A stretch of 64,000 bases of DNA from assembly GCA_014695195.1 (NCBI GenBank), contig JACJNW010000041.1:1-64000 (forward strand), read 5' to 3'. A program made the translations under genes and the position numbers. Below, piece by piece: positions 3,497 to 19,956 of the stretch. Position 1 is the first letter of the stretch. Every line of letters starts with the position of its first letter. The notes beneath the pieces are model-generated. The model did no database searches, was not told where the DNA came from, and saw nothing but the letters and a program-made list of their open reading frames with translations. This stretch comes from Cyanobacteria bacterium FACHB-DQ100 (GTDB taxonomy: Bacteria > Cyanobacteriota > Cyanobacteriia > Leptolyngbyales > Leptolyngbyaceae).

Positions 3497-4018
3497 TTCA
3501 AACGCATAAATGTTCACCAAAGTCACTGCTAGAAGTTCGACCACGCCCCGCAATGCGAAGCCGTGCTGGCTCGGTTGCTCGGCTGTCGCTCTATCATTTA
3601 GGTCGTAATCTAAAGCCTTTCAGAACGATTGAGGCTGCGCTCCGACAAGCACGACGATGGCAGTAATGAGGGCATCCGGCAAGTCCAACTTAGATAAAAA
3701 GCAATCAAACCCTGCTGCAAGCACTTGATGAGCACAGAACTCTCGATTGTAGGAGGTAAGCCCAATCGGCCGAAAGCTATATATGCCACGGAATCTGAGT
3801 TATCGACATTTAGGAGTCTCATTTGTCGATCGTACGTTTAGAACAGGATTTCTGGCTGTCGTTCCGCCGATCATGGCTGTCATTTAACAGCCCTTCGCCT
3901 CTGCGTTGAACCCCTATCAAGCTATTAGTTCAGTTCGTCACTCTATACCAAAAGGGCTTAGCTCGGGTCAATTACTACTGCTGTTGACCTTAACAGACTC
4001 GTTGCAAAAATCTGACCC

Positions 4019-4076: not shown

Positions 4077-4210
4077 TCGGAGTCAACCCCAGTAAATAGA
4101 AAGCTCCAAAGTCAGCTGCGTATGTCGAAGTGGAGCGAAAAAACGGCACATTGCTATTCATTTTTTAATCTCTTTTATGCCGTGTCAACTACAAATCGGG
4201 TTCGCGAAAA

Positions 4211-4387
4211 TTATACTGAGATGAGATCGCTGTGCATTTGCAAGGGTTTGAGCATTTGTTCTAATTGACGCGAAGCCCAAAAGTAATTGACGCGGCACAA
4301 GGCTGTACCCGCCGACGTTAACATTCGATTTCTAGCCCAGGCAATATGCTCACTCTCTTCTTTTCTTAGAGCTCGGCTAACAGCCAT
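4211..4387 (-). CDS. Possible small ORF of 58 aa, or fragment of a decayed gene
   Basis: An ATG-started frame on the minus strand encodes a polar, helix-prone 58-residue peptide containing EESEHIAWARNRML and RVNYFWASRQLEQML. There is no good ribosome-binding site. Just upstream, in another frame, another protein-like stretch (QFLPEEFWYKYARLD) ends at a stop codon, which suggests a frameshifted older gene rather than a new small one. Family not recognised. Confidence 0.15.
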   Translation of the reverse strand: MAVSRALRKEESEHIAWARNRMLTSAGTALCRVNYFWASRQLEQMLKPLQMHSDLISV

Positions 4388-4596
4388 AAACAGTCCAATC
4401 TAGCATATTTGTACCAAAACTCTTCCGGTAAGAATTGTTGTACTTACATTGCGGCAGAAGAAATCGTGTCCTTCACTTTCAGTCCTTGACTGATGTCAGA
4501 AGTTTTTCAAATCAAAGGGTAGGGGAGGGGTTCACTGAATTGAATAATTCCCTCCAAAGTTGCGTCAAATTTTGCTCCAGCTCCGCGTTCTGAACC

Positions 4597-5598
4597 TTAC
4601 AGGTCATCGTCGTCTTCGCTCCTGACTAAGTTGCCTAAGTTAATCGGCAAGCTTATGAGTGGCACGACATCAGACCCTAACTTCAATTGCTGCGCGAGTG
4701 ATTGCAAGGCTAACTGAAGGGTTAACGTTCCGCGCCCGGTCGCGATCGGTAGATGCGACCAAATCTCTTGCAAACTCTCCCAAACAGCGTCATCAACAGG
4801 AACGGACAGATGTTCGGGACGCGCTGTTTTCTCCTCTGATTTATCCCCATCTTGTTTGGGTCTGTCCCATAGTGGCGCGAGCCAATCAATCATCTTCACC
4901 TCCATTGCAAGAACAGTTTCCTTGGGAGAACCCTTCGTGTACAGGACACCAAACCGCGCGTCGGGTATCTGTTTCAATTCCGGCTTGAGATTATGCCGAG
5001 TCAACCTTTGTTTCACATTCAACGACATCCCGATATACAGCGGTTCAGTTTGGGTTGCAAAGAAGTAGACACCAGGCAAGCTTTTAGCGGTTGCGAACTC
5101 GTCGATCGGCTGTAAGCGATCATAGTCGTCAAGTAGGCTTTCCTTAATCCGATCGGGGTTTTTAACATCAGGGCAGGCGGTACGAATCAGTTCGTTATAT
5201 TCAGAAGCCAGCTCGCGGAAAAGCTCGCTTAGCTCAGATTTGAGCGTTTCGACTAAAACAGGAATTGATTCTTTGGAGAGCGCAAACAAGAGGGAATTCT
5301 GGTTTAACCGGACACAGAACTGCTGATCCACCGGGTCACGCCCAACGCGAGTGAAGACAGAAGTAGTGAGCTTGTTTGTATAGCCAAACTTGTCTACAGC
5401 GGTTATTTCCAAACCAACCCGGAGGCTATTGAGACTAAACGTACTCAACCAATCCAATTGGCGAAGACAGTAATAGAAAGCTGTGCGATAGAGCGGATCA
5501 GGTTTTTTCAGATGTTCCTTCAGATGGGCTTTGTACCAAGCAGCCTTCCAACCAAACAGGGAACTCTTAGAAACATTACATTCAATCAGTTCAAGCAT
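4597..5598 (-). CDS. GIY-YIG domain protein
   Basis: A 333-residue protein. I start it at the ATG at 5598 because GGAG lies 7 bases upstream; the longer frame from a TTG at 5664 would run through the terminator hairpin of the preceding gene. A divergent GIY-YIG nuclease core lies at about residues 173-245: G176-V-Y178 for GIY, Y188-I-G190 for YIG, R198, H202 and E233 at positions expected for catalytic residues. The remainder is unlike known DNA-binding modules. The C-terminus is acidic (SEDDDDL). GIY-YIG proteins cut DNA in homing, repair or phage contexts; here it could be an element endonuclease, but activity is not demonstrated. It is the left-most gene clearly belonging to the element. 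Confidence 0.7.
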   Translation of the reverse strand: MLELIECNVSKSSLFGWKAAWYKAHLKEHLKKPDPLYRTAFYYCLRQLDWLSTFSLNSLRVGLEITAVDKFGYTNKLTTSVFTRVGRDPVDQQFCVRLNQNSLLFALSKESIPVLVETLKSELSELFRELASEYNELIRTACPDVKNPDRIKESLLDDYDRLQPIDEFATAKSLPGVYFFATQTEPLYIGMSLNVKQRLTRHNLKPELKQIPDARFGVLYTKGSPKETVLAMEVKMIDWLAPLWDRPKQDGDKSEEKTARPEHLSVPVDDAVWESLQEIWSHLPIATGRGTLTLQLALQSLAQQLKLGSDVVPLISLPINLGNLVRSEDDDDL

Positions 5599-5613
5599 TT
5601 GAATCTCCAATAG

Positions 5614-5637
5614 AAAAGCCCCGCTGGGCTGCGGGGC
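5614..5637 (-). terminator. Rho-independent terminator
   Basis: On the minus strand the stem GCCCCGC/GCGGGGC with a six-base loop is followed by TTTTCTATT. It ends transcription from the gene at 5711-6475 before the GIY-YIG gene, which then needs its own promoter or read-through. Confidence 0.75.
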
Positions 5638-5710
5638 GATGGACCTTACAGAAAAAAGCAGCAAGCATATAGCAATTGTTTCAGCAGTCGCTTTAGGAAC
5701 GAAGCGACTG

Positions 5711-6475
5711 TTATTTGCCCTTTTTTAGCTGACTTTTTACTTGTTGTCGGTACTGTTCTGCGAGTAGATGCTTTGCCATTTCTTCCTCCATGATGCGAGC
5801 CTTTTCTTCCTCGGTTAACTCAAGGATCGGCGCATCGTCGTCATCACCTTCATTCAAGGTCTCGATTGCTTCTTGGAGAATTTCAAGCCGTGATTTGGCA
5901 TCTTGTTTCACGAGCGCTGAAGTTTGCTTCGCTTGTGCGTTTTCATCTCGCTTGTTTTTTGCCATCTCTAACAGAGTCGCCGCGACAGCCAGCTTGTCTT
6001 TAACAGCCTTCGCACCGTACCGATCAACCAATTCCTCACGTAGCGTTTCGACGGCAATTTTGTCACCGTTTTCACCCTGAATACATCGAGCGATCACTTC
6101 ACCAATCGCGTCGAATCCGAACTCGGTAATCTGACCTTTCTTATCCTGAATCTCGGGACAATTAACATATTCATAGGCAGGCTTGATGAACTTCTGCATC
6201 CAAGATCCCTTCAACGTACTGGGGTTGCATACCAGCCCGTTTTGCTTGTAACCGTCCACAGCATCCTTGAAACTGAGTGGAAAACTCAGCCCGGTTTTGT
6301 CCAGTTTTACAGCCGGTTTTGCATCGGTTTTTCCCGGTTCGATTCCAGTTCCGTCTGGATTCACTTCGGTTCCGTCGAGTGTCGTGTAGGTTTCCATCAG
6401 TTGTCTCCGGGTTTCCTCTAGTTTTAATCGGTCAAACTCAGGCATATCGGGCGATACAGTCGTTTTGCAGGTCAC
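5711..6475 (-). CDS. Element-encoded protein of unknown function
   Basis: A 254-residue protein, family not recognised. The start is the GTG at 6475, which has AGGAG 8 bases upstream; a GTG 9 bases earlier is too close to that site. The N-terminal part is short and rich in Gly, Pro, Thr and Asp (about residues 30-55), followed by a globular stretch (FPLSFKDAVDGYKQNGLV, FIKPAYEYVNCPEIQDKKG) and a long charged helical C-terminal half with ETLNEGDDDDAP and a Lys-rich tail. The 5' coding region overlaps a phased array of CCGGTT-like hexamers, so base sequence as well as protein may be constrained. It is transcribed divergently from the RHH gene at 6726. A replication-accessory or DNA-binding role is possible, but nothing in the sequence proves it. 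Confidence 0.6.
   Translation of the reverse strand: MTCKTTVSPDMPEFDRLKLEETRRQLMETYTTLDGTEVNPDGTGIEPGKTDAKPAVKLDKTGLSFPLSFKDAVDGYKQNGLVCNPSTLKGSWMQKFIKPAYEYVNCPEIQDKKGQITEFGFDAIGEVIARCIQGENGDKIAVETLREELVDRYGAKAVKDKLAVAATLLEMAKNKRDENAQAKQTSALVKQDAKSRLEILQEAIETLNEGDDDDAPILELTEEEKARIMEEEMAKHLLAEQYRQQVKSQLKKGK
6291..6371. repeat. Phased CCRGTT hexamer array, block 1
   Basis: CCGGTT, CCAGTT or TCGGTT hexamers start at 6291, 6301, 6313, 6324, 6334, 6345 and 6366. The steps are 10, 12, 11, 10, 11 and 21 bases, close to one or two helical turns. The spacing is not a multiple of three, so it is not a by-product of a protein repeat, although the block lies in the 5' part of a gene. Confidence 0.65.
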
Positions 6476-6548
6476 GAGTAGCACTCCTAGTTTTCAAAGA
6501 TTTCAATCCTAATCAAGTCTCGAGGGAAACCGATTTGAGTCTGGCCTG

Positions 6549-6620
6549 AACCGGACTGGAACCAGTTCTAAACCGGTTTAGAACTGGTTCTAAAACCGAG
6601 TGTCCGGTTTTGCGCCGGTT
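6549..6620. repeat. Phased AACCGG/CCGGTT hexamer array, block 2
   Basis: Copies start at 6549 (AACCGG), 6560 (AACCAG), 6571 (AACCGG), 6582 (AACTGG), 6594 (AACCGA), 6604 (CCGGTT) and 6615 (CCGGTT), with steps of 11, 11, 11, 12, 10 and 11. AACCGG and CCGGTT are reverse complements, so the sites share a face of the helix. The block lies in the intergenic region between the gene at 5711-6475 and the RHH gene at 6726. It resembles centromere or iteron arrays bound by small RHH or Rep proteins. Confidence 0.7.
6559..6590. repeat. 32-bp perfect palindrome inside the hexamer array
   Basis: The 16-base arm GAACCAGTTCTAAACC is followed at once by its exact reverse complement. It holds four hexamer units of the array and could form a cruciform. 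Confidence 0.8.
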
Positions 6621-6636
6621 TTCACTTACTATAACA

Positions 6637-6652
6637 TATCGTACATACGATA
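6637..6652. promoter_or_regulatory. Putative RHH operator and promoter region
   Basis: TATCGTA and TACGATA flank a CA centre. A TATAAT at 6670-6675 could be the -10 box for the gene at 6726, which would place the palindrome over its -35 region, as expected for an autorepressor site. The flanks (ACTATA, ATAGT) resemble the palindrome at 11805 before the other RHH gene. Confidence 0.45.
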
Positions 6653-6725
6653 GTGTCATTATTGGATACTATAATGAAAAGCGTATTCAAAATTAGTCAT
6701 TTAGGTTTCAATAGGAAGACACAGT

Positions 6726-6974
6726 ATGACAGTTGCAAGTGTGGGAAGACCAAAGAAACTAGCGAAGCGTCGCAACTATAAAATCAGCTTCGATGTGCTG
6801 GCGAAGTTGCAGGCGATCGCACAGTTAGAAGATAGGAGTGATACGGCACAGCTAGAGCGCTTTATTCGGGAAGGCGCGGAACGTTGGGAGTTGGAAAATC
6901 CTGGCAAGGCATCGGCTTATCGAGATAGGACTCTCAAGATACAAACAGAATTGGAGAACTCTCACGACGAATAG
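6726..6974 (+). CDS. Ribbon-helix-helix DNA-binding protein
   Basis: An 82-residue protein with a basic N-terminal arm (GRPKKLAKRR), a predicted beta strand (NYKISFD) and two helices (VLAKLQAIAQLE, TAQLERFIREGAERW), the layout of CopG/Arc-type regulators. AGGAAG precedes the ATG. It lies beside the helically phased CCGGTT arrays and behind the 6637 palindrome, so it may repress its own promoter and may coat the array. Small RHH proteins in such positions include plasmid segregation adaptors (ParR, Omega) and copy-number repressors. No ParM- or ParA-like ATPase is encoded nearby. A bidirectional terminator follows 2 bases after the stop. Confidence 0.6.
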   Translation: MTVASVGRPKKLAKRRNYKISFDVLAKLQAIAQLEDRSDTAQLERFIREGAERWELENPGKASAYRDRTLKIQTELENSHDE

Positions 6975-6975
6975 A

Positions 6976-7014
6976 AAAAGCCGCCCCTGACTCAGTTGTC
7001 AAAGGGCGGCTTTT
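6976..7014. terminator. Bidirectional terminator
   Basis: AAAAGCCGCCC and GGGCGGCTTTT pair perfectly around a 17-base loop. The A-run and T-run let it serve the RHH gene (+) and the gene ending at 7026 (-). Confidence 0.85.
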
Positions 7015-7025
7015 CTTTAAGTAAT

Positions 7026-7397
7026 TTAGATCATCGATTGATGATCGAGAGTCAACGTTAGGGCGCGGAGAACCTCGACGCCTTCGTCGACTTCAGCGTT
7101 GTGGATGATCGTGAGAAAGCCCTTCAGCTTCGGAGTATCGAAGGCGGGCCAGTCTGATCGTTTGAAGCAGCCAGTGTCGAGACCTTGCTCGAAGTTAAGG
7201 GCTTCTGAGGCGAGCCAGCCGCTCAGGAGTCGAATGCAGAGCAGTCTGTCAGAAAGAGCGAGACGAACGAAGTCTGCTCCGTATAGCTCAAGTAGACTCT
7301 GCAAGCGTGTGGGCGGTAGGGCGCTTCGGACGTCGCGTCGGAAACGTCTTAATAGATCCTGAGCAGTCGCGTGGAACTTTGATGTAGAGGCTGACAT
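7026..7397 (-). CDS. Element-encoded hypothetical protein
   Basis: A 123-residue soluble protein, family not recognised. AGGAG lies 7 bases before the ATG. The N-terminal half is basic and helical (LLRRFRRDVRSALPPTRLQSLLELYG); the second half is neutral to acidic (EVDEGVEVLRALTLTLDHQ). No membrane segment and no catalytic motif are seen. It follows the gene at 7407-7706 after 9 bases, so the two are probably one transcript, ended by the bidirectional terminator at 6976-7014. Confidence 0.6.
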   Translation of the reverse strand: MSASTSKFHATAQDLLRRFRRDVRSALPPTRLQSLLELYGADFVRLALSDRLLCIRLLSGWLASEALNFEQGLDTGCFKRSDWPAFDTPKLKGFLTIIHNAEVDEGVEVLRALTLTLDHQSMI

Positions 7398-7406
7398 AAG
7401 AGACTC

Positions 7407-7706
7407 CTAGAAAAAGCATTTACTTGTGAGAACGCTTGTGGTCAATGCGACGTAGACTGAGACCGCGCCGAGCGATGCACCGGCAACCAGATTGACCAGT
7501 TGGATCAATGTGGGTCGAACTGCCTTAGCGAGACGGTAGTTGGATTCAGCCGCCGCTAGGTCTGAGTGCAGTTCGTGAATCCGGGCTCTGAGAATCTCAG
7601 AGTGTTTATCTGGTGTGATGCCGCTGAGAAGTTGATGCAATTCAGATTCGACTTTGGAAGTTTGCTGAGCGTTATGTTGAGCAATGCGAGCGAGGATGTC
7701 ATTCAT
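7407..7706 (-). CDS. Small membrane-anchored hypothetical protein
   Basis: A 99-residue protein with a polar, coiled-coil-prone N-terminal two thirds (KVESELHQLLSG, ILRARIHELHSDLAAAESNY) and a single hydrophobic segment near the C-terminus (LIQLVNLVAGASLGAVSVYV), consistent with a tail anchor. First gene of a two-gene unit with 7026-7397. The ribosome-binding site is weak (GGAC). The layout recalls phage or plasmid small membrane proteins, but no function can be assigned. Confidence 0.55.
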   Translation of the reverse strand: MNDILARIAQHNAQQTSKVESELHQLLSGITPDKHSEILRARIHELHSDLAAAESNYRLAKAVRPTLIQLVNLVAGASLGAVSVYVALTTSVLTSKCFF

Positions 7707-7754
7707 GATTCAAGTCCGTTAAAATGAACTGAAGAATGATTTACCTCGTTAAAG

Positions 7755-7801
7755 AAGCCCGCGTCCTGAACGTTTTTGCAGTTCTGACAGGACGCGGGCT
7801 T
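7755..7801. terminator. Strong hairpin with 14-bp stem
   Basis: AAGCCCGCGTCCTG and CAGGACGCGGGCTT pair perfectly over a 19-base loop, with short T-runs on both strands. It separates the small operon on the left from the gene at 7919 on the right, acting as an insulator rather than ending an obvious gene. Confidence 0.65.
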
Positions 7802-7918
7802 TTAGTATCTAAGCCGCTGGTGATCTGGGATTAGCTCTCAGCTTAGTGGGTAATTGGTACTCGCGGATTCATCGTCTGATACGAGACGCGATACGGCGCA
7901 ATCCAGGACGATCTGGAA

Positions 7919-8317
7919 ATGTATCAGCACTACAAATCGGTTTGGTTTAGCTCTTTGAAGGCGGAACCGAGACGCTACCGGGTGCCCCTGAGCCGTTCAA
8001 TCGAGCAGTATTTGGCGCGAAGTGGCGGCGACGAGAATTATCACTACATGCGAAGTTCCGAACGTACGCATTATTGCCGCGCAGAGCTAGCGATCGCAAA
8101 TGGAACGCCGCCAAGCAAGCGACCACAAGGCTACGCCGAAAACCTCTTGACCGGCGAAGTCAGACCCATCTGGAACATAAATCAGGTTCGGCGGCAGAAG
8201 ATTTCAGGCGGCGATCATTACAAAATGCCGGCTTTTGTGGCAGGGAAGATCCCTGAGCTTCACGGCTGGAGATATCTGAGACATAACCCCTTTCAGAATG
8301 AGCCGCAGCAGACTTGA
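7919..8317 (+). CDS. Element-encoded hypothetical protein
   Basis: A 132-residue, basic, aromatic-rich protein (YQHYKSVWFSSLK, DENYHYMRSSERTHY, LHGWRYLRHNPF), family not recognised. It has no signal peptide or membrane segment. Its composition suggests nucleic-acid contact, but no known fold is evident. The ATG has no clear Shine-Dalgarno sequence, and the frame is open for only 13 codons upstream. It is one of the few plus-strand genes of the element, framed by hairpins at 7755 and 8341, and contains a HIP1 octamer, so it shares the host base signature. Confidence 0.45.
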   Translation: MYQHYKSVWFSSLKAEPRRYRVPLSRSIEQYLARSGGDENYHYMRSSERTHYCRAELAIANGTPPSKRPQGYAENLLTGEVRPIWNINQVRRQKISGGDHYKMPAFVAGKIPELHGWRYLRHNPFQNEPQQT

Positions 8318-8340
8318 TTCGGAACGGCTGTACGTTTCAT

Positions 8341-8380
8341 CGCGCTGATTGAGGTCTAATTACCTCGTTCAGCGCGTTTT
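8341..8380 (+). terminator. Rho-independent terminator
   Basis: CGCGCTGA and TCAGCGCG pair, with an inner GAGGT/ACCTC stem, followed by TTTT. It lies 23 bases after the gene at 7919-8317. Confidence 0.75.
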
Positions 8381-8529
8381 CTGTCATAGCGGGCGCGGGG
8401 TTTGTTAGCAGATGATCGAGCGCGGGTCTTCGTGAACAAGTCGCGGGGTTTGGGGCGGCATGGGGGCGTGAAAAACACTACCCCCCATAGGATCAAAACC
8501 TCGAAAACGCCTACCCAGTAAGAATTGAT

Positions 8530-8581
8530 ATACCCCACCGGTTCCCCTAAATCAGCCAAAAACAGGGAACCGGTGGGGTAT
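8530..8581. repeat. 17-bp perfect-stem inverted repeat after the polymerase gene
   Basis: Arms 8530-8546 (ATACCCCACCGGTTCCC) and 8565-8581 pair without mismatch over an 18-base loop. It lies 24 bases past the polymerase stop, but no T-run follows on the minus strand. Each arm carries one CCGGTT/AACCGG hexamer, the same unit as the phased arrays at 6.3-6.6 kb. It could be a terminator, a cruciform or an origin element. Confidence 0.7.
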
Positions 8582-8605
8582 CGAATTAGCGCCGAAAATC
8601 CTCTT

Positions 8606-11410
8606 TTATCTGGAGAGTTCGTCTGCGTTCATCGCTCTAACGACTGCGGAAATTCCGTATTTACGAGCGCGCTCGAAGAACTCGACTGGTTTACCATGAT
8701 TCTCCGCTTTGCGACTGTTGCGACGCTCGTAGTCCTTGATTTTTAGAATCGGAATGTGCGTGTTGTTAAAACGTGCCGTCCGAGTCTCGATAATTTCATC
8801 TCCGGGATGTTGGTCTACGATGTGCGTGTAGCCGTTAGTCGATTTCTGTGCGATTGTCCAGGCTGTGAGCGAGAGGAAATACTGCTCGTTGTATTCCATC
8901 TCCTCTGGAAAATCGTCCGTACCATCTAGGATGTTTGTCAAGAGCTTGAACGTCGGGTGTGATTTCAGCTCCGCGTTCGGGCCCTTCTGCGTGCTGAAGT
9001 CCTTGTTCCCGCGACTTTTGAAAACATCTCCGTAATTGATGGTTCTAAAGGCATAGTCGCCCTTTTTGAAGTACGCCATTGCGGTAGAAGTGTTTTGAAC
9101 TTTGTGCTCGATGTCGAATGGGAAACTCAATCCGTAACGCTCCCAGAATTTGTCGATGTGGTCTTTGGCGGTTGCGTTTAGAAACTTACCGAGTTCCTCC
9201 TTTTCGTAATCATCGATTTCTTTAGCGTCCTGTAAGGTGCTGTATCTCTCTTTGACCTCGGCTATCCACTGCTCCCAAGTCGTGCCGTCTGGTAGGCCTG
9301 CTAGGGGTGCTACCGTCCGGGTGTAGTTCCTATTGTCCTTCCAGTTGGAAATGTCTGCGAAGGTGTTAAAACCTGGTTGTTTCGCGTTCGGTTTTAGATA
9401 AGCAACCGACAGTGGAGAATAGCCGCCGCCGTCTGTGATGGATTGGACTGTGTGAAGTGATTTGTTCATCATCCAGGCTCCTAACCGTGCGCGGGCTGTG
9501 ATGTTGTTCGCGAGGATTGTGTTCCCAACCTCGAAGTATGGAGATGCGATCACGCCGTAGGTCGTGTTGATGAATAGCTTCAGTGTTTCTTGGTATGCCA
9601 TTTCACCGTTATCTTTTGCTCGTCTGCGCTCGGTTACAAGAAGACCTGTGAAGTCTTCCATCGATAATCCGACCCATTTCCGCGTGCGGTCGTCCTTGTT
9701 ATTGCCGTGTCTGTTATCAATAACGGTACGTTCACCCTCGTCTTGTAGGGCGTGATCGACCCATTCATCCAACGTGTCGATTTGATCAGACTTCGCATAA
9801 AACGCGCCCGCTTGAACCTCTAGATCGAGCCAGGATTTCTTCTCTCTGTCTGCCGATACCCGGTTGATTGCGTTCAGAATGTCTGACGTGATGATGCCGT
9901 TTTCGATCTGTGTTTGGCAGAGTAGAAAATCACCGGGGATATGTGAGACCTCGGTTCGCTGCTCTACTCCGTCACCCCTTTCGTAGTCTTCGTCCTTCAA
10001 GCTTCTAATCTTCTGTGCCGATACATCCTTTGAGAAGATTAAATCTTGTCTGAATGGTAATTTGCCTGAGACGACGATGTGCCAAAGGTTAGGGACGAGT
10101 TCACTTTCATATCGGGTGAGAAACTCTCTGACTGTCATTGGCTTCTCTTCGTCGTACTGCGAGATCACGGTTGGTAATCCGATCGGGTATGTAAACGATC
10201 TGAGTGCCTCTCCATAGCAGCTATTCATATCGATATCGAGTGCGACTCCAGTAACTCTGTACTTCGTGGAGAGTTCGTTATTACAACGTCCGCCCTGGAC
10301 TAATGCCAAGAAAACGCTGGAGTCTGATTGCTTAGCGAAGTATTGGACTCCGGCTTGACCGAGTGCCGTGTGAAGGAAGGATTTGGAGTTGATAATCGCT
10401 TTGAGATCATTTTGAAGTTCTTTGCGCTCTAGATCCGCGCTCGTTTTGATTTCACGTCGCAGTTTGTTTAAGTTCTCTCGGGTCTTCCGGTAGTTTTTTG
10501 CCCCGCTATTCAGAATACCTAGCTTTTTGAGGGCGAAGTCGAATGCTTGCTTATTCGAGGCTTGGTTGCGGATATGGGTGTATAGAACCTCGGATGTGAG
10601 GGTTCCTACGGTCTGCGCGATGGTATCTTCTGTAAACCAATCCTCTTCGGGGATTCCGAGTGTCTCCTGTACCTTGCGTACCAGTTTGACGTACTCTTCA
10701 AAGATGCTGACGAGCGCGGTTGTATCTCCCATTGCGTAGCGTAGGAATGTTTCTGGATGCTTGACCAGCGCTTCGTCCATGCGACATTTGTAATCGTCTA
10801 GTTCGTGCTTGTCTGCCATTTCGACCCCTACTGCGGCTGTTAGTTGTGCGAGTCCTTTCGCTGCCCAGCCTGCTAGGTCGTGAATGGAGATTTGATTACC
10901 TTCTCCGATCGTTAGCGGGCCTTTGCGGTTCTTGATTCCGCGCATCTTCACGAGTTGCTTGTTGGTGTAATAATACTCCGCTTGTTTCTTGCCAAAAGCG
11001 TATCTCAAGTCGCGAGCTGAGAAGAACATCAAAAGGCGGATTCGGCAATTCTGTAGGTTCAGTCGAATCAATAGGTCTTCCAGCGTTCCGTCGTCTAGGT
11101 TGCTCCACGGAATCAGCTCGATTCCCAGTGCGAAAGCGTACTGCTCTAAATAAGTGAAATACTCTTCTTGGACGTAAACGAATTGTCTGCCGCTTTCATG
11201 GTGGTAATACTGCACGGTTAGAGCTTCTGAGATGTCGACTTGACAGCCGGCTTTCTTCAGAGATACCGTGAGTTTAGAGTGCCATTCTGCGTCTAACGCG
11301 ATTGTGTGGGCTGTGTTTGTGTCCTGATCTTCCTCTGTCTGCGCGCTTGTTGAAGCTAGGCAATCGCTTACTGTAGAAGGAAAATCGAGAATTTGATCGA
11401 GAGTGTCCAT
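8606..11410 (-). CDS. Family-B-like DNA polymerase with 3'-5' exonuclease domain
   Basis: A 934-residue protein. N-terminal DEDD-type exonuclease motifs: LDAEW (D40, E42), SARDLR (D134), and YAMGD (Y225, D229). The linker motif QGGR (372-375) matches the YxGG element between exonuclease and polymerase domains. Polymerase motif A is DIDMNSCYG (D394), motif B is KLFINTTYG (K611, Y618), and a KKGDY stretch (782-786) matches the KxY motif. Motif C is unusual: SITDGG around D660 instead of YxDTDS, so only one of the two usual aspartates is clear. The two-helix insertions and length suit mobile-element or phage PolB, including protein-primed or primer-independent types; which type cannot be told here. 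It lies 154 bases downstream of an RHH gene on the same strand and probably replicates the element. Confidence 0.75.
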   Translation of the reverse strand: MDTLDQILDFPSTVSDCLASTSAQTEEDQDTNTAHTIALDAEWHSKLTVSLKKAGCQVDISEALTVQYYHHESGRQFVYVQEEYFTYLEQYAFALGIELIPWSNLDDGTLEDLLIRLNLQNCRIRLLMFFSARDLRYAFGKKQAEYYYTNKQLVKMRGIKNRKGPLTIGEGNQISIHDLAGWAAKGLAQLTAAVGVEMADKHELDDYKCRMDEALVKHPETFLRYAMGDTTALVSIFEEYVKLVRKVQETLGIPEEDWFTEDTIAQTVGTLTSEVLYTHIRNQASNKQAFDFALKKLGILNSGAKNYRKTRENLNKLRREIKTSADLERKELQNDLKAIINSKSFLHTALGQAGVQYFAKQSDSSVFLALVQGGRCNNELSTKYRVTGVALDIDMNSCYGEALRSFTYPIGLPTVISQYDEEKPMTVREFLTRYESELVPNLWHIVVSGKLPFRQDLIFSKDVSAQKIRSLKDEDYERGDGVEQRTEVSHIPGDFLLCQTQIENGIITSDILNAINRVSADREKKSWLDLEVQAGAFYAKSDQIDTLDEWVDHALQDEGERTVIDNRHGNNKDDRTRKWVGLSMEDFTGLLVTERRRAKDNGEMAYQETLKLFINTTYGVIASPYFEVGNTILANNITARARLGAWMMNKSLHTVQSITDGGGYSPLSVAYLKPNAKQPGFNTFADISNWKDNRNYTRTVAPLAGLPDGTTWEQWIAEVKERYSTLQDAKEIDDYEKEELGKFLNATAKDHIDKFWERYGLSFPFDIEHKVQNTSTAMAYFKKGDYAFRTINYGDVFKSRGNKDFSTQKGPNAELKSHPTFKLLTNILDGTDDFPEEMEYNEQYFLSLTAWTIAQKSTNGYTHIVDQHPGDEIIETRTARFNNTHIPILKIKDYERRNSRKAENHGKPVEFFERARKYGISAVVRAMNADELSR

Positions 11411-11420
11411 GTGCTATAAT
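11393..11420 (+). promoter_or_regulatory. Putative antisense promoter over the polymerase start
   Basis: TTGATC (11393-11398) and a perfect TATAAT (11415-11420) are separated by 16 bases. The promoter points away from the polymerase gene on the opposite strand, and its -35 box lies inside the first codons of that gene. Confidence 0.45.
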
Positions 11421-11426
11421 TGCCTT

Positions 11427-11545
11427 AGATTTGCTTAGTTTTTTGTCGTCAATTCCGTGTTGGTCTAAAGTCGGATGGAGTTGAGTGTCAATGGAACTTA
11501 ATCGAGAATCAAAGCCCTGTGAGTTTGCACCTCGCGGGGTTTTTT
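11427..11545 (+). ncRNA. Candidate counter-transcribed RNA of the polymerase leader
   Basis: A transcript of about 119 nt is predicted from the promoter at 11393-11420 to the T-run at 11540-11545. It contains no sizeable open frame and is fully complementary to the 5' leader of the polymerase mRNA. The position between an RHH gene and a replication gene matches the antisense RNA of pMV158-type plasmids. No expression evidence exists here. Confidence 0.35.
11511..11545 (+). terminator. Plus-strand terminator in the RHH-polymerase gap
   Basis: The stem AAAGCCCTGTGAG/CTCGCGGGGTTTT uses G-U wobbles that pair only in plus-strand RNA; the minus-strand copy would have A-C mismatches. Six T residues follow on the plus strand. 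No annotated plus-strand gene ends here, which is why a short RNA is proposed. Confidence 0.6.
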
Positions 11546-11564
11546 ACATTTCAGAGTCCGAAGT

Positions 11565-11786
11565 CTATCTTTCCGTATCTTGAATGCTCGCAAGTGCGCT
11601 TTCGAGTCCTGGCGCATCGAGCGCGCGGCTCAATCTTTCAAGCAGTTCAGTTCGGGTAATACCAAGCTGATCCGCCTTCTTGCCCAGTAGGTCGAAGCAG
11701 GTCTGTGTGAGTGGAAAACTCCGCCTTATCTTCACTTCGCCCCAGGTGGTTAAGGGAGTGCCTTTCGTGCCTCTCGGTCTTGCCAT
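11565..11786 (-). CDS. Ribbon-helix-helix regulator, CopG-like position
   Basis: A 73-residue protein with a basic N-terminus (MARPRGTKG), a beta-strand segment (EVKIRRSFPL) and two helices (CFDLLGKKADQLG, TRTELLERLSRAL), as in RHH/CopG-type repressors. AAGGA precedes the ATG. The promoter at 11805-11846 carries a palindrome over its -10 region, suggesting autoregulation. Downstream on the same strand comes the polymerase gene, and the only hairpin in between is oriented for the opposite strand, so the two genes may be co-transcribed. By position, it is likely a copy-number repressor of the polymerase; this is inference. Confidence 0.6.
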   Translation of the reverse strand: MARPRGTKGTPLTTWGEVKIRRSFPLTQTCFDLLGKKADQLGITRTELLERLSRALDAPGLESALASIQDTER

Positions 11787-11804
11787 TGCTTCCTTTAGAT
11801 CAAC

Positions 11805-11846
11805 TATACTATGATTAATAGTATATCACAGCTAAACTACTGTCAA
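11805..11846 (-). promoter_or_regulatory. Promoter with palindromic operator for the RHH gene
   Basis: On the minus strand a consensus TTGACA (11841-11846) is followed after 15 or 17 bases by TATACT or TACTAT. The palindrome TATACTAT/ATAGTATA (11805-11825, 5-base centre) covers the -10 box, so a bound repressor would block RNA polymerase. Confidence 0.6.
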
Positions 11847-11888
11847 CATTAGATTTCAAGTCCGCACACAATCCAACCCTGCACAAAC

Positions 11889-11924
11889 AAAAGCCGCTCA
11901 CCCATCAACCGGGAGCGGCTTTTT
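11889..11924. terminator. Bidirectional terminator
   Basis: AAAAGCCGCTC(A)CCC and GGGAGCGGCTTTT pair with one bulged A around a 7-base loop. A- and T-runs flank it. It insulates the RHH-polymerase unit from the gene at 11971. Confidence 0.8.
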
Positions 11925-11970
11925 AATGATCGAATTTGTCCCGCTGAAATTCTGAGGAGGAGATTTAACG

Positions 11971-12333
11971 ATGGAGTATCAAGCCGAAGCGATTGAGATT
12001 CTGCAACAAGCGATTACCATTCTTGAGCGGACTGAATCGCTGCTGAATCGGATTGAATCTGAGTATTTGCAATCAGCAAATCAGGAATGGATTAATAAAC
12101 ACGCCGCCGCGCGTATCGTAAATAAACACTGGCAAACCTTGTGGCAATGGACAAAAGACGATAGCCGAGGTTTGATCGAGGGAATCCATTGGCAGAATGA
12201 TGGACGGGAAATCGTTCACCACGCAGAACTTCTCAAGGATTGGTATCGTAATCGTCATGACCCGAACACGCACTTGTTAGTGGTTGAACAATTCCAAAAA
12301 GCGCGCCAGCCTAAACGCAAACGTGCTTCCTAA
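11971..12333 (+). CDS. Small DNA-binding-like protein, candidate excisionase
   Basis: A 120-residue protein with a strong ribosome-binding site (AGGAGGAG). The N-terminus is a helix of about 45 residues (EAIEILQQAITILERTESLL), followed by a region resembling a helix-turn-helix or winged helix (WINKHAAARIVNKHWQTLWQWTKDD, then GIHWQNDGREIVHHAELLKDWY) and a basic tail (RQPKRKRAS). It converges on the integrase gene, and the two stop codons overlap by 4 bases. Small basic winged-helix proteins beside an integrase are often recombination directionality factors, hence the candidate role. No close family was recognised. Confidence 0.45.
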   Translation: MEYQAEAIEILQQAITILERTESLLNRIESEYLQSANQEWINKHAAARIVNKHWQTLWQWTKDDSRGLIEGIHWQNDGREIVHHAELLKDWYRNRHDPNTHLLVVEQFQKARQPKRKRAS

Positions 12334-13469
12334 CTCTCTAAGATATCGGGCATCTGAATCTCACTCACATTATTCAAGTAACTCTCCTTCAGCGTACGCG
12401 GGTCGTGACGGGTAATGAGCGAGACCTGCTCAATTGTCATTTTGTGATCGTAAACCGCCGTATTCACGAAGCTTTTTCTTAATGTGTATGGGCGACGATA
12501 ATCAATCTCCAACTTCTCTAAGATTACTTTCCAGGCTCGCCGGTAGAACGTTTTTGCGTTGATGTTGGAGCCTCGCCGACTGGGGAACACCAAATCTTCT
12601 GGAGCAGCATCCATCGGTCTTCTTCTCCATAACAATTCGCTCAGTCGCGGCGGTAAGGGAAAACTTCCGGCATGATTTGTTTTGGTCGCCTTCCGCACGT
12701 TACGCACCGTGATACTTTCGCCAATCCAAACTGTTGTCAGGTCATCGTTAAAATGTTTCCACTGCAAAGCGATGACCTCTCCGGTTCGCGCGCCGACCGA
12801 CAAAAAGAATTCTACAAAATCAGCATAATAGCTGTATTCAGAATCGACCCTGAATCCCTGAATGATTCGCTTGAGTTCTTGCGCTGTAAACGGTTTCTCT
12901 CCCTGCGTCGGTGCGACCTTAATCCCCGTGTGTACATCTCTCCACGGATTTTCGGCATCAATGATCTTCTTTTCCGACCCCCATGACCACAGCGATTTCA
13001 TCATGCCAATCCGTTCGCGTAACGTGGACTGAGCCAACGATTCAGCTAAGAAATCCCGAAACCGCGCCGCGGTTAATTCATCGACTGAATTGACCGACTT
13101 GCTCTTAAAGAACTCTGCCACTTGATTCCCCAGCGCGCGGTATTTAATCAGCGTGTCCTCAAAAACATTCTGCACATCCCGCTTATGCGAGACCCATTTC
13201 TCAAATAACTCAACTACCGTGATCGCGCTCAGTCGCGCTGTTCCAGTGTATTTTTTCAACGTCGGATCAAATTGCCGCGAATGTAAATCCGCCTCAATCG
13301 CCGTGGCTTTGGCTTTCGCTAATTTAAGATTCGTATCGGTTTCGGGAAGTCCTAATGCTAAATAATATCGCTGCCCGTGTCCGCCTAATGTTCGAGTCCA
13401 TGTCCAAATTAACTTTAGCCGCCCTTTGACGACATGAACCTGTACCGTTCCCGCTGAACTTTTCGGCAT
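12330..13469 (-). CDS. Tyrosine recombinase / phage-type integrase
   Basis: A 379-residue protein with a full tyrosine-recombinase catalytic set: R228 in GARTGEVIALQW, K263 in KATKTNHAG, R331 in YTLRKSF (Tyr replaces the usual His of HxxR), H355 in LITRHDP, and the nucleophile Y364 in LKESYLNN. Residues 1-70 look like an arm-type DNA-binding domain, and residues about 85-190 form the core-binding domain. GGAG precedes the ATG. The gene starts 190 bases from the 3' end of tRNA-Pro, with TTGTGATC-type repeats between, the usual arrangement for an integrase next to its attachment site. It should catalyse integration and excision of the 4.6-13.7 kb element. Confidence 0.9.
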   Translation of the reverse strand: MPKSSAGTVQVHVVKGRLKLIWTWTRTLGGHGQRYYLALGLPETDTNLKLAKAKATAIEADLHSRQFDPTLKKYTGTARLSAITVVELFEKWVSHKRDVQNVFEDTLIKYRALGNQVAEFFKSKSVNSVDELTAARFRDFLAESLAQSTLRERIGMMKSLWSWGSEKKIIDAENPWRDVHTGIKVAPTQGEKPFTAQELKRIIQGFRVDSEYSYYADFVEFFLSVGARTGEVIALQWKHFNDDLTTVWIGESITVRNVRKATKTNHAGSFPLPPRLSELLWRRRPMDAAPEDLVFPSRRGSNINAKTFYRRAWKVILEKLEIDYRRPYTLRKSFVNTAVYDHKMTIEQVSLITRHDPRTLKESYLNNVSEIQMPDILES

Positions 13470-13481
13470 CCTCAGTCTCCA

Positions 13482-13613
13482 GATTGTGATCCAATTTTTG
13501 AGGGGCTTTAATTGCGATCGCGATCACAATCGTGCAGCATCAAACGCCTAAGATCAAGGAAAATCGTACAAGATCTCACAGCGGCTCACTGCTGCAACAC
13601 GACAGGATCACAA
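13482..13613. repeat. TTGTGATC repeats between integrase and tRNA, possible arm sites
   Basis: GATTGTGATC (13482-13491), its inverted copy GATCACAATC (13522-13531) and GATCACAA (13606-13613) lie between the integrase start and the tRNA. Such repeats are typical of arm-type sites for an integrase or its directionality factor. They could also repress the integrase promoter. Confidence 0.45.
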
Positions 13614-13618
13614 AAGAT

Positions 13619-13652
13619 AAAAGGGCTGAAAGCCTTAGCCTTCAACCCTTTT
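13619..13652 (-). terminator. Terminator of tRNA-Pro
   Basis: Read on the minus strand, AAAAGGGTTGAAGGC and GCTTTCAGCCCTTTT pair with two G-U wobbles. It lies 7 bases beyond the tRNA 3' end. If the tRNA end is the junction, this terminator is supplied by the element side. Confidence 0.7.
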
Positions 13653-13658
13653 ATTTAA

Positions 13659-13732
13659 TCGGAGCGGCGGGATTTGAACCCACGACCCCTACTACCCCAA
13701 AGTAGTGCGCTACCAAGCTGCGCTACGCCCCG
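13659..13732 (-). tRNA. trnP-GGG: tRNA-Pro (anticodon GGG)
   Basis: Cloverleaf on the minus strand: acceptor CGGGGCG/CGCTCCG plus discriminator A, D arm GCGC/GCGC, anticodon stem CTACT/AGTAG around TTGGGGT (anticodon GGG), and T arm GTGGG TTCAAAT CCCGC. No CCA is encoded. The tRNA is intact; its 3' half faces the integrase and is the likely attachment site. Confidence 0.9.
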
Positions 13733-13840
13733 ATGTGTTTTCCGCCGATTTGAGCGGCATTGCCAATAGTAGCACATCTGCAGTCAGATTTAAACGACAA
13801 ATTTTAGAACCATAAAAGCCCTATTTCTCCCCAAAACTTT

Positions 13841-16800
13841 TTAATGCTCCGTTGCGCCGATTTTCTTGATGCTTGCAATTTCACTGGCTGGAATCGGAGT
13901 CGATCGCTTCCCGGAAAAGTCGCGCAACAATCCCATCAACGCTGGAACGACCGTTGGAGTTAACACCGTTGAGAATGTTAATCCTCCAGTTAAAACAATT
14001 CCTAAGCCTTGATAAAGCTCCGAACCTTGACCGGGTAACACTGCAAGCGGCAGCATTCCCAAAACGCTCGTTCCCGCCGACATGAAAATGGCTCTCAGTC
14101 GATCCTTGGTCGCACTTAACAGCGAGGAATCGTAATCTTCTCCTTCTTGCTGAAGCTGCAATGCACGATCGACCAGCAAAATCGCGTTATTCACCACAAT
14201 TCCAGTTAGAATCACGAATCCCAAAGCGGTGATCATATCTAATGGAACTGACATTCCAGGAATTTGATTGACGAGAACCAAACTCAACAGAGCACCACTC
14301 ATGCCCATCGGAACTGTTGCCATGATCACGACAGGATAGAGAAACGATCGATACAACGCAACCAGTAATAGATAAGTAATCACGACGGCAAACGCGAATG
14401 CGGCTGTTAATTGGGACACTGTTGTTGCCAGTTGGTCAGCCGTTCCCGCTAATGCTAAGCGGTAGCCTGCGGGTAGATTTGCCTGTGCTGGAGCGAGAAT
14501 CTCGCGCTTGACTTGAGTGACGATCGCGCTCAAAGGAGCCGTGTCTGCCAAAGAAGCCGTTAACGTCACCGATCGCTCTAAATCGGTGTGATTAATCACG
14601 TCGGCTCCAGTCGCTTCTCTAACGTCAGCCACATCTCCAAGCTGAATGCGTTTACCCCTTGCAAATAGGGGCAATTGCCGCAACTGCTCTGGGGTTTGAA
14701 CGAAGATATTTTGCAGTTCTACCGAGACATCGAGTTCTTCTTTACCATCGATGAACTTAGAAGCCAGCCTGCCACCGAGCGCCGTTTCCACCATCGAACC
14801 AATCTCGGATTCCGAGAGTCCAACTTCTGCCAGCCGTTCTCGATTAGGAATCACTTGCAATTCGCCTGCACCAACAACAAAGTTCGATCGCACATTGCGA
14901 ATTCCATTGATAGCGCGTAGCTTGCCTGAGATCTCGCGATCGATTTGTCCGATCTGGTTCAAATCGGTGCCCACGATATCGACTTCAAATTCTTTGCCCG
15001 GATCGCGGAAAATCGAGGGACGGATCGGAACCATGAATCGATAGCCCGCGAAATTGTTACTCGCTGCCCGGAAGCGATTCACCATTTCTGCCAGCCCGCG
15101 CGTTGTGGCAAACTCAGGTTTTAGAATTGCTGAGATCGCTCTCAATGCGCCTGGGCGATCGATAAACATGACGCGATCAACTTCGGGCTGAGCGCGGACA
15201 AATTCTCGCACAGGTTTAGACTGCTCGATCGCCTCTGCAATACTTGTTCCCGCTAGCGGCTCAACGCGCCACTGAATCTGGTTGCGATTGCCTTCTGGGA
15301 GATAATCGGCAGGGGGCAACAAAAAGAAACTCGCAAACAATAGAGAAACTGGAATTGCTAAAACAAGCAATCGCCGCTTCATGTGGTGACGACCGATCGA
15401 CCAGCGAACAGTTCTGGCTAGGAAATGCTCAAACTTTCCTTGGATCTGTCGAAAGGCGGCAGATGTTTTGGCAACTGAGCGCTCAAACCAGTTGCCCCCC
15501 CGATATTCGCCGCCTTCAAACATCTGCATTGCCTCTGATTCTTTTAGAAACAATCCAGATAGCATTGGAACAAGCGTGATCGCAGCAAACAAAGAGAAGA
15601 TGGCGGAGCAAGACATGGTAATCGCCATATCCGCATAAAGCTGTCCTGCTTCACCCGTTACCATTAACAGCGGAATAAACACAACGACGTTGGTTAGCGT
15701 CGAGCCAAGCATCGCGCCCCAAACCTCTTGGGTTGCTGTGATTGCGGCTCGAAATGCACTTTCTCCACGCTGCATATGCGTAAAGATGTTTTCAATCACG
15801 ACGATCGAGTTATCCACGACCATGCCAACGGAAAATGCAATTCCAGCCAGACTAATAATATTCAGCGATCGACCCAACCAAGACATCACGATGAAAATCA
15901 TCACGGAGGCAATCGGAATCGTAATTGCGATCACAGCAACGGTTCGCATTGAACCGAGAAATAATACTAATACGATCGTCGCAAGTACCGCTCCAGCGAT
16001 CAGATTTTCTTGCACAAAGTTAACTGCTTGACTAACGTATTCGTTCTCGTCGTAGTTATAAACAAAGCGAATGCCTTCTTTTTGCTGATCAAACTGGACT
16101 TGGAGTTCGGCAATCGCCTGTCTGACTCCTTGGGAGATTTCAGGAACGTTTGCCCCGACCTGCCGAATAATGCCAACTGCGACCGCAGGTTTATCGTTAA
16201 ATAACAGCGCACTATCGCGAATCTTGCGCCCCATTTCTACCTTGGCGACATCGCGAATGTAGACCGTTCCTCCAGCATCCCGCCGCAGCACAAAGCCCGC
16301 AATCTGTTCAATATCTTGCGATCGGCTCAGAGTTCTCACCCGATATTCTCGCCGCCCTAACTCTAAGGGGCCGCCCCGAATATCGCGGTTATTTTCCCGC
16401 AGCACTCGCACAACATCGCCGATCGTCAAATTTCGATCAGCTAGAGCTTTCGGATCAACTCGAACCTCAACTTCTCGCTGCCGCCCGCCGGAAACGATGA
16501 ACTGTCCGACTCCTTGAACCCGCCGCAATCTCGGTAAAACAATCTCTTCTGCTAAATCGCGGTAGCGATCGGGATCCGGTTCAAATCCGGGCTGGGTATC
16601 AAACGGAATCCACATCATCGGAGAGCTATTGCCCCCGACTAACTCCACGTTGGATTCGAGCGCTTCCGGTGGCAGACTGGCAACCTGCTGCAACCGATTC
16701 AGCACATCGACCAGTCGATTCTCGACGCTCGTACCTTCTTCAAAAGTGAGCGTGATCGAACTGCGCCCTGGACGGGATGTACTGCTGATTTCTTTTACGC

Positions 16801-17026
16801 CCAGCACTTCTTCCATCTGCTCTTCGATCGGGCGCGTGATCAAATCTTCAACTTCCGCAGGTGCAGCTCCCGGATATCCAGTATTGATTGTAATTTCTGG
16901 ACGATCGCCACCGGGCTGTAACTCTAGCGGCAATCGAAAGAGCGAAAACACACCAAAGATTGCTAGCAGACAGAACAGCACAAACGTTCCATGTCGCCAG
17001 CGAACCGCCGTTTCAATCAACTTCAC
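13841..17026 (-). CDS. RND-family efflux transporter (AcrB-like inner-membrane pump)
   Basis: A 1061-residue protein with the RND layout: an N-terminal membrane helix (TFVLFCLLAIFGVFSLF), a large periplasmic loop with the porter motif YPGAAPAEVEDLITRPIEEQ, a cluster of helices, a second loop and final helices. Helix 4 carries GMVVDNSIVVIENI, so of the two proton-relay aspartates of AcrB (407, 408) the first is kept and the second is Asn; helix 10 has GIVVNNAILLVDRA where AcrB has Lys940. These variants are common in subgroups outside AcrB itself. It starts at GTG, overlapping the adaptor stop by 4 bases (GTGA), so the two are translationally coupled. Substrate unknown: drugs, lipids or metals are possible. 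Confidence 0.9.
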   Translation of the reverse strand: MKLIETAVRWRHGTFVLFCLLAIFGVFSLFRLPLELQPGGDRPEITINTGYPGAAPAEVEDLITRPIEEQMEEVLGVKEISSTSRPGRSSITLTFEEGTSVENRLVDVLNRLQQVASLPPEALESNVELVGGNSSPMMWIPFDTQPGFEPDPDRYRDLAEEIVLPRLRRVQGVGQFIVSGGRQREVEVRVDPKALADRNLTIGDVVRVLRENNRDIRGGPLELGRREYRVRTLSRSQDIEQIAGFVLRRDAGGTVYIRDVAKVEMGRKIRDSALLFNDKPAVAVGIIRQVGANVPEISQGVRQAIAELQVQFDQQKEGIRFVYNYDENEYVSQAVNFVQENLIAGAVLATIVLVLFLGSMRTVAVIAITIPIASVMIFIVMSWLGRSLNIISLAGIAFSVGMVVDNSIVVIENIFTHMQRGESAFRAAITATQEVWGAMLGSTLTNVVVFIPLLMVTGEAGQLYADMAITMSCSAIFSLFAAITLVPMLSGLFLKESEAMQMFEGGEYRGGNWFERSVAKTSAAFRQIQGKFEHFLARTVRWSIGRHHMKRRLLVLAIPVSLLFASFFLLPPADYLPEGNRNQIQWRVEPLAGTSIAEAIEQSKPVREFVRAQPEVDRVMFIDRPGALRAISAILKPEFATTRGLAEMVNRFRAASNNFAGYRFMVPIRPSIFRDPGKEFEVDIVGTDLNQIGQIDREISGKLRAINGIRNVRSNFVVGAGELQVIPNRERLAEVGLSESEIGSMVETALGGRLASKFIDGKEELDVSVELQNIFVQTPEQLRQLPLFARGKRIQLGDVADVREATGADVINHTDLERSVTLTASLADTAPLSAIVTQVKREILAPAQANLPAGYRLALAGTADQLATTVSQLTAAFAFAVVITYLLLVALYRSFLYPVVIMATVPMGMSGALLSLVLVNQIPGMSVPLDMITALGFVILTGIVVNNAILLVDRALQLQQEGEDYDSSLLSATKDRLRAIFMSAGTSVLGMLPLAVLPGQGSELYQGLGIVLTGGLTFSTVLTPTVVPALMGLLRDFSGKRSTPIPASEIASIKKIGATEH

Positions 17027-19116: not shown

Positions 19117-19197
19117 AAAAAAACTTTAGAATCTACTCTGAAAGCGAATTCGCCGCTACAATAACCTTTACCTTGAATCAAGAAAACTTCGGCAGCG

Positions 19198-19932: not shown

Positions 19933-19956
19933 GCTTGTTTTGATTCAAGCCCTGTT

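Follow-up and report, generated by a model that had tools for sequence, protein, structure and literature searches.

A family-B DNA polymerase with the PolB_SITDG signature in a putative integrated plasmid-like element beside a cyanobacterial tRNA-Pro gene

Introduction

What kind of element brings together a family-B DNA polymerase (PolB), a tyrosine recombinase and a tRNA gene in a cyanobacterium? The question is raised by a block of genes that ends at a tRNA-Pro gene in Cyanobacteria bacterium FACHB-DQ100. The block lies in the window analyzed here, a stretch of 64,000 nucleotides at the start of contig C41 (JACJNW010000041.1) in a 5.5-Mb genome of 44 contigs, and the numbering of that window is used throughout. 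The contig begins at window base 1, and sequence further left lies outside the assembly contig. A sequence-only reading had described positions 4597-13659 as a pipolin-like integrative element, self-replicating and non-conjugative.

The explanation favored here, with moderate confidence, is that of an integrated plasmid-like mobile element, a replicon with a tRNA-Pro integrase module and with swappable recombinase and replicase modules. In the elements compared, a recombinase/excisionase-like module that recurs at the tRNA-Pro genes of congeners is joined to a backbone which runs from an RHH-like regulator (RHH73) through PolB, a second RHH-like regulator (RHH82), phased repeats and a protein of 257 amino acids (aa) to a GIY-YIG protein (Table 1).

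A Polymerase with Half of Motif C

The polymerase is present in its own genome as a single, open copy. It carries the exonuclease motifs D40/E42 and Y225/D229, and motifs A (D394) and B (K611 and N615) are both in place. Motif C reads SITDG (residues 657-661, with D660), the first catalytic aspartate being absent. All 14 aligned sequences, counting that of the window, have ITDG; in a 28-row alignment T-D-G is invariant and the isoleucine is kept in at least 90% of rows. In an alignment to the polymerases of phi29 and T4 and to E. coli Pol II, the T-D of PolB matches the second half of their D-T-D. In other family-B polymerases, the second aspartate of motif C carries most of the metal binding. 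Compared with the copy in strain FACHB-63, the gene is under purifying selection, with a ratio of nonsynonymous to synonymous changes (dN/dS) of 0.16 at a synonymous distance (dS) of 1.40.

A hydrophobic residue in place of the first motif C aspartate is the mark of PolB_SITDG, a group described from cyanobacteria and algae (Kazlauskas et al., 2020, PMC7544198). Going by this motif and by the published description, the window polymerase bears the PolB_SITDG signature, and its taxonomic range fits: all ten matching plasmid records are cyanobacterial, and the family also occurs in one Planctomycetota and in one Magnetococcales metagenome-assembled genome (MAG). A novel POLBc subfamily made up of homologues of Pp6859 orf4-orf5 had been described by Lee et al. 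(2016, PMC4814812); it occurs in plastids and in plasmids of cyanobacteria and red algae, has a “DG” metal-binding motif and reaches 1242 aa in its longest member. Since the relative on Rivularia plasmid pRIV7116.01 has a coding sequence of 3729 bp, that is, 1242 aa, this subfamily is probably identical with PolB_SITDG. The window enzyme shares with both accounts its motif C, its cyanobacterial host and its plasmid relatives; unlike it, the enzymes in the available parts of these accounts are not placed in an integrated element with a recombinase and a tRNA target, nor in prophages. No PolB_SITDG enzyme in an integrated element was found in the literature, searched by titles and abstracts with most subscription papers and bioRxiv outside coverage; that search also found no report of PolB_SITDG enzyme activity, the enzymes being named from sequence.

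Family databases recognize the protein faintly. Pfam gives DNA_pol_B_2 below its cut-off (E 0.0059) and NCBIfam gives DNA polymerase II (E 0.0016), while PHROG places a family without known function first (phrog_36870, E 1.1e-24) and DNA polymerase families next, from E 1.5e-4. A host or known phage polymerase was considered and rejected, none of 50,697 phage records matching at E 0.01. The AlphaFold2 model built from the 28-row alignment (mean predicted local distance difference test, pLDDT, 86.4; predicted template modeling score, pTM, 0.87) has the fold of a family-B polymerase with an exonuclease domain, as the sequence-only reading had proposed. Fold matches extend over residues 23-924, and an exonuclease-containing piece of Pol epsilon matches residues 32-270 (Z 12.0, root-mean-square deviation, rmsd, 4.1).

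To which branch of family B does such an enzyme belong? The polymerase of phi29 heads the structural matches (Z 12.9, rmsd 4.0, 491 residues aligned) and is counted as tied with RNA-primed polymerases at Z about 12 and rmsd 6-8. A profile search of the PDB favors the RNA-primed side: 26 of the 28 sequences at E<=1 are archaeal- or eukaryotic-type PolBs and none is phi29 (best E 0.0017). Profile alignments by hhalign are weak for phi29 (E 0.0055), Pol II (E 0.0019) and T4 (E 0.026) alike. In the phi29 alignment (E 0.0055, probability 6.6%), a YPxGxP stretch that follows motif A is matched. With the profile leaning one way, the folds tied and the alignments weak, the enzyme is not assigned to a single branch. 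From motif B to motif C there are 47 residues in eight of eight members measured, too few to accommodate a TPR2 of the phi29 type; phi29 itself has 73 residues there, T4 61 and Pol II 52. TPR2 is the second terminal-protein region of phi29 polymerase.

These features decide how far the resemblance to pipolins goes. Like the pipolins of E. coli and others, the block has its own family-B polymerase, a tyrosine recombinase, a tRNA at one end and small cargo without known function; a recombinase beside a tRNA is usual for pipolins and does not define them. The structural match to phi29 and the YPxGxP alignment would also suit a primer-independent piPolB. Yet PolB_SITDG clusters apart from pPolB+piPolB in the published comparison (PMC7544198), and the motif spacing and the PDB matches point the same way. 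By signature and published clusters, with no piPolB sequence in the comparison, the polymerase is thus not a piPolB; fold scores do not separate the branches. Pipolins further have att-like repeats at both ends; here no second copy was found in the window, whose contig starts at base 1, and partial copies lie on another contig (C25). No uracil-DNA glycosylase family was found by Pfam among ten open reading frames (ORFs). The block is pipolin-like in outline and is not classed as a pipolin, contrary to the label first given to it.

Relatives on Plasmids and in Chromosomes

Plasmid records matching PolB are rare, ten among 72,556. Four circular plasmids, of 4576, 5106, 5532, and 5943 bp, have the polymerase as their largest ORF, and the one of 5943 bp carries a TnpB gene too. 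It lies beside a telomere resolvase on the linear plasmids pSTA7437.04 and Cy782206, and together with a protelomerase-family protein on pRIV7116.01, listed as circular. The relatives L052, L055, and L057, on plasmids with telomere resolvase or protelomerase genes and in two of the three cases with terminase-like genes as well, mark possible phage-plasmids. A plasmid search with phi29 DNA polymerase gave seven records, none nameable as piPolB.

The distribution is patchy, as the sequence-only reading had wished to see checked: the PolB family occurs in four of 58 related genomes and the 257-aa protein in two, the window's own genome included each time. Of 386 genomes sampled from the phylum, at least six match by single sequence (one of them weakly, over 46 residues) and at least five by profile, own genome included; these counts are lower bounds, two best candidates having been scored per genome. 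A scan of species genomes with the single PolB protein gave no match, while the profile scan gave 27 loci, including the FACHB-63 copy and the Planctomycetota and Magnetococcales loci mentioned above. In viral contigs the profile found eight loci, three of them weak; L110 and L112 are apparently the sequences of G340 and G185 again. In a tree of 31 rows, the window polymerase pairs with that of FACHB-63 (100/100) within a clade of seven rows (100/98) and a larger one of 11 rows (96/95), two rows of the latter having very long branches.

Two chromosomal or phage-like settings may be set beside these. On a Nostoc chromosome (L083 8991-11812), a shortened integrase of 207 aa adjoins a PolB of 620 aa with host genes on both sides, and the locus resembles a degraded version of an element like the window block. 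In G389 (L081 5792-12733), a relative of 985 aa lies about 4 kb from a tRNA-Ser, and its neighbors are phage-like by eye.

The Recombinase Module and its tRNA-Pro Target

That the tyrosine recombinase adjoins tRNA-Pro, as first proposed, is borne out, with 188 bp between the start of the gene and the 3' end of the tRNA. The protein matches Pfam Phage_integrase (E 1.8e-12) and a PHROG integrase family (E 5.6e-39), and R228, K263, R331, and Y364 are invariant in seven of seven alignment rows (window included). Tyrosine recombinases usually have a histidine in the HxxR box; the window enzyme has a tyrosine at this position. The excisionase-like ORF, for which Pfam offers a sub-threshold WD40 match (E 0.015), has relatives of 50-58% identity paired with integrase genes in three congeners (G391, G388, and G389).

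The surroundings of tRNA-Pro were compared in four of the seven other congeners, namely these three and G392 (FACHB-63), the closest one sampled. A complete tRNA-Pro has an integrase next to it in G391 (61% identical), G388 (56%), and G389 (37%), and has none in G392. The excisionase-like relative accompanies the tRNA-Pro integrase in G391 and G388; in G389 it goes with a split integrase that adjoins an incomplete tRNA copy. Apart from the integrase and the excisionase-like ORF, no block protein was found in the tRNA-Pro stretches examined in G391 and G388. In the window's own genome, contig C25 carries partial tRNA-Pro copies at 92550-92598 and 102431-102483 (L038 4551-4599 and 14432-14484), about 10 kb apart; these own-genome searches scored nine of 45 and 40 of 55 candidates. 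Taken together, the integrases at tRNA-Pro in congeners and the copies on C25 indicate that the 3' end of this tRNA is a target used repeatedly in the genus. A different tyrosine integrase, of 389 aa, lies directly left of the second partial copy on C25 and belongs to a separate element or remnant; the first partial copy is common to G392 (C151).

Where does the block end? DNA of G392 is 91.8% identical over window positions 13641-23083, and the identity stops 17 bp past the 3' end of the tRNA, beyond which G392 carries host genes. Such a break supports a right junction of the block at the tRNA 3' end. The empty site expected by the sequence-only reading was thus found in part: the tRNA-Pro of G392 lacks the block, but no clean two-sided empty site could be obtained.

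Two Sister Elements in Strain FACHB-63

G392 carries two sister elements, on contigs C82 and C120, which share much of the window backbone and differ in other modules. The C82 element has a polymerase 68% identical to that of the window, a weak RHH82 relative (39% over 49 aa), and a GIY-YIG gene split into two ORFs. Its recombinase is instead a large serine recombinase of the XisF-like type (NCBIfam XisF, E 8.9e-66, below cut-off). It also has an RHH-type ORF (Pfam RHH_3, E 0.0015), not counted as a relative of RHH73, and a ParM-like/ParR-like pair of ORFs, a label given by eye with no Pfam, NCBIfam or PHROG family match. Its non-coding DNA is 71% identical over window 4304-4456 and 82% over 4493-4598. 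The left limit of 4597 originally drawn therefore falls short, the homology reaching to about 4304.

The C120 element keeps the order of the window, with relatives of RHH73 (36%), RHH82 (63%), the 257-aa protein (73%) and the GIY-YIG protein (62%, at the contig end). It differs in having a large serine recombinase, beside a gene labeled upp by eye, and in having a protein of 784 aa (L075 6823-9177) at the position of PolB. For the latter, Pfam, NCBIfam and PHROG gave nothing more than a sub-threshold helix-turn-helix, and it reads as a polymerase from motifs by eye only. Remote relatives of this 784-aa protein occur on Calothrix and Synechocystis plasmids.

The hairpin box at 11869-11931 adjoins the recombinase module in all three elements even though the type of recombinase differs, and next to the serine recombinases of the sister elements it is 83% (54 columns) and 89% (56 columns) identical. 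A box kept beside unlike recombinases suggests that modules are exchanged among elements of a single kind, and recombinase and replicase appear to have been exchanged on a common backbone. The 257-aa protein is also under purifying selection relative to its G392 copy (dN/dS 0.21, dS 0.85). A flanking host pump gene has a dS of only 0.28 against G392; with values of 1.40 and 0.85, PolB and the 257-aa protein were thus not simply inherited vertically with the chromosome.

The Left End

Homology to the sister element ends at a dispersed repeat resembling a miniature inverted-repeat transposable element (MITE). Its terminal inverted repeats are 15 bp long, with 13 of the 15 positions matching by eye in the window copy, and copies 91-95% identical occur in G390, G387, and G392. 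Another dispersed repeat, likewise about 120 bp long and also present in congeners, lies at window 3769-3891. A left attachment site was not found within the window by repeat search (20 of 33 direct-repeat families listed), blastn or patterns. Given the two repeats and the missing attL, the left end has probably decayed, and this copy may be unable to leave.

Layout of the Block

Table 1. Features of the block from the tRNA-Pro gene leftwards (window coordinates).
Feature	Position	Strand	Basis
tRNA-Pro (anticodon ggg), intact, presumed attR at 3' end	13658-13733	minus	tRNA calls; end of G392 synteny
Tyrosine recombinase, 379 aa	12330-13469	minus	Pfam, PHROG, active-site alignment
Excisionase-like ORF, 120 aa, converging on integrase	11971-12333	plus	role inferred from position
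Terminator-like hairpin box, conserved, between recombinase module and backbone	11869-11931	.	G392 comparison
RHH-like regulator, 73 aa (RHH73), upstream of PolB	11565-11786	minus	sequence pattern only and 36% relative in G392 C120
Family-B DNA polymerase, 934 aa, PolB_SITDG signature	8606-11410	minus	motifs, predicted fold
Perfect hairpin, 17 bp, directly 3' of PolB; terminator or replication signal	8530-8581	.	repeat analysis
ORF without assigned function, 132 aa	7919-8317	plus	weak G392 C82 match, E 4.8e-5
ORF without assigned function, 99 aa	7407-7706	minus	ORF list
ORF without assigned function, 123 aa	7026-7397	minus	ORF list
RHH-like (Arc-like) regulator, 82 aa (RHH82)	6726-6974	plus	PHROG Arc-like, E 0.19; 63% in G392 C120
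Operator- or centromere-like site: four 17-nt repeats and palindrome	6551-6620	.	repeat analysis
257-aa protein without assigned function	5711-6484	minus	73% relative in G392 C120
GIY-YIG nuclease-domain protein, 355 aa	4597-5664	minus	Pfam E 2.7e-5, above cut-off
Conserved non-coding left backbone part	4304-4596	.	G392 C82 DNA identity
MITE-like dispersed repeat at left limit of homology	4178-4297	.	copies in G390, G387, G392

Ten ORFs were scanned, all of them with Pfam and PHROG and seven with NCBIfam. No relaxase or transfer family was found among them, as the sequence-only reading had noted, which sets the block apart from integrative conjugative or mobilizable elements, and the Pfam scan of the ten gave no Cas1 family, which sets it apart from casposons. 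Two RHH-like ORFs are indeed there, as claimed; their label comes from pattern and relatives, with no Pfam RHH match. The “many terminators” once noted come down to a modest surplus, 18 sites where shuffled sequence gives 9.8 +/- 3.0. The base composition of the block is not distinctive. A defense island was considered and rejected, PADLOC giving two weak matches only, AbiEi for the 257-aa protein (E 0.0064) and mad5 for the excisionase-like ORF (E 0.0051). The 257-aa protein occupies the position of the ParM-like/ParR-like pair of C82, and from this position a role in partition is inferred.

How the Element Would Work

As an integrated replicon, the block would follow a simple cycle. The integrase would recombine a site on the element with the 3' end of the tRNA, leaving the tRNA whole, and with the excisionase-like protein would excise a circle, which PolB would copy. 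The primer would most likely come from the host primase or RNA polymerase, since no primase or terminal-protein gene was recognized and since there is no room for TPR2. The RHH proteins would control replication, and RHH82, the phased repeats, and the 257-aa protein would together maintain the circle from one generation to the next. Nicking or resolution of DNA may be the part of the GIY-YIG protein, and priming by such a nick is a possibility; nine of the ten plasmid records have no annotated GIY-YIG gene, in a gene table that is incomplete. The window copy itself is possibly stranded by the decay of its left end. Self-replication, part of the first reading, is suggested by the relatives that are the largest ORF of small circular plasmids, while no episome, attL or excision was seen.

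More tentatively, the block may represent a wider class of integrative replicons in cyanobacteria. Their sole element-coded replicase would be PolB_SITDG, working without a dedicated primase (from a host transcript, a GIY-YIG nick or its own primer), and their constant backbone of RHH, 257-aa and GIY-YIG genes would exchange whole recombinase modules (tyrosine with tRNA, or large serine) as well as replicase modules.

If PolB copies DNA, then small cyanobacterial plasmids have a polymerase-driven mode of replication. An integrated element, a near relative in a second strain and plasmids of 4.6-6 kb make a tractable test of how a PolB with half a motif C copies and primes. The same enzyme would link plasmids, linear plasmids with telomere resolvases and temperate cyanophages, and red-algal plasmids as well if the family of Lee et al. 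is the same.

Competing Explanations

Several points weigh against an integrated replicon. On the side of the enzyme, motif C lacks one aspartate, and all active, experimentally characterized PolBs fall in the main cluster, i.e., outside PolB_SITDG, according to Kazlauskas et al. (2020, PMC7544198). On the side of mobility, no episome of the block was seen, and no attL was found in the window, where the contig starts at base 1; nor was there a second match to the tRNA 3' end in the window (25-nt pattern with <=3 mismatches; blastn of 13600-13800). Other near copies (92-94%) of this 3' end lie on C25, one of them beside another integrase. The genes of the G392 left flank sit on contig C19 of the window's own genome beside other host genes, so that rearrangement complicates the comparison, and the claim is limited to the right junction, without a two-sided empty site. 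For RHH82, the integrase, and the excisionase-like ORF, dS is saturated. Finally, several members of the 11-row clade to which the window polymerase belongs are prophages.

This last point leads to the alternative that survives best, although it is judged unlikely: a phage satellite or stripped prophage, derived from temperate cyanophages that use this polymerase, which lost its head and tail genes and is now dead or mobilized by a helper. Within the clade, L109 has terminase, portal, and capsid matches and an integrase beside tRNA-Gly, PolB lies near a terminase in L008 and L084, and it lies near tail genes in L007 of G340. Like these temperate phages, the window block combines PolB with a tyrosine integrase beside a tRNA, and the succession of integrase, excisionase, regulator, and replicase beside a tRNA recalls satellites. 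Phages such as L109, however, carry terminase, portal, and capsid genes, and no packaging, capsid or tail family was found by Pfam or PHROG among the ten window ORFs (four of which have no PHROG match at E<=1, and four more only above E 0.05). The purifying selection on PolB and the 257-aa protein also argues against a stripped prophage, as does the ParM/ParR-like pair of C82, recognized by eye with no family match, in sister contigs of which the phage-gene scan covered a minority of the ORFs.

Less probable still is a fortuitous patchwork, in which the remnant of an island integrase at tRNA-Pro and a fragment of a PolB plasmid were joined by chromosomal rearrangement and have no mobility in common. 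The repeated targeting of tRNA-Pro 3' ends in the genus, the rearranged left flank, the MITE-like repeat at the left end, and the missing attL would all suit it; the box that adjoins the recombinase module in three elements despite differing recombinase types does not. As for a true pipolin with a primer-independent piPolB, the combination of PolB, tyrosine recombinase, and tRNA is outweighed by the motif C signature, the motif spacing, and the PDB matches, and such an origin is very improbable.

Hairpin and Phased Repeats

Two non-coding sites of the integrated replicon proposed here deserve a closer look. The perfect hairpin directly 3' of PolB shows two compensatory pair changes relative to C82 of G392, read by eye. 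Its outer 9 bp, ATACCCCAC/GTGGGGTAT, also occur 3' of PolB in that element and in Nostoc FACHB-973, thus at three of 20 PolB loci. Perfect stems of at least 9 bp lie 3' of PolB at 11 of 20 loci; among 800 random windows of 300 nt, 125 have one. A PolB-specific origin is not claimed for the hairpin, since ordinary terminators also explain the excess of stems and since the ATACCCCAC/GTGGGGTAT form is common in viral contigs, with 95 matches. The second site lies between RHH82 and the 257-aa protein, where three of the four 17-nt repeats are spaced 11 nt and where the palindrome is perfect over 32 bp. A similar block of repeats at the same position in C120 of G392 suggests a predicted operator or centromere.

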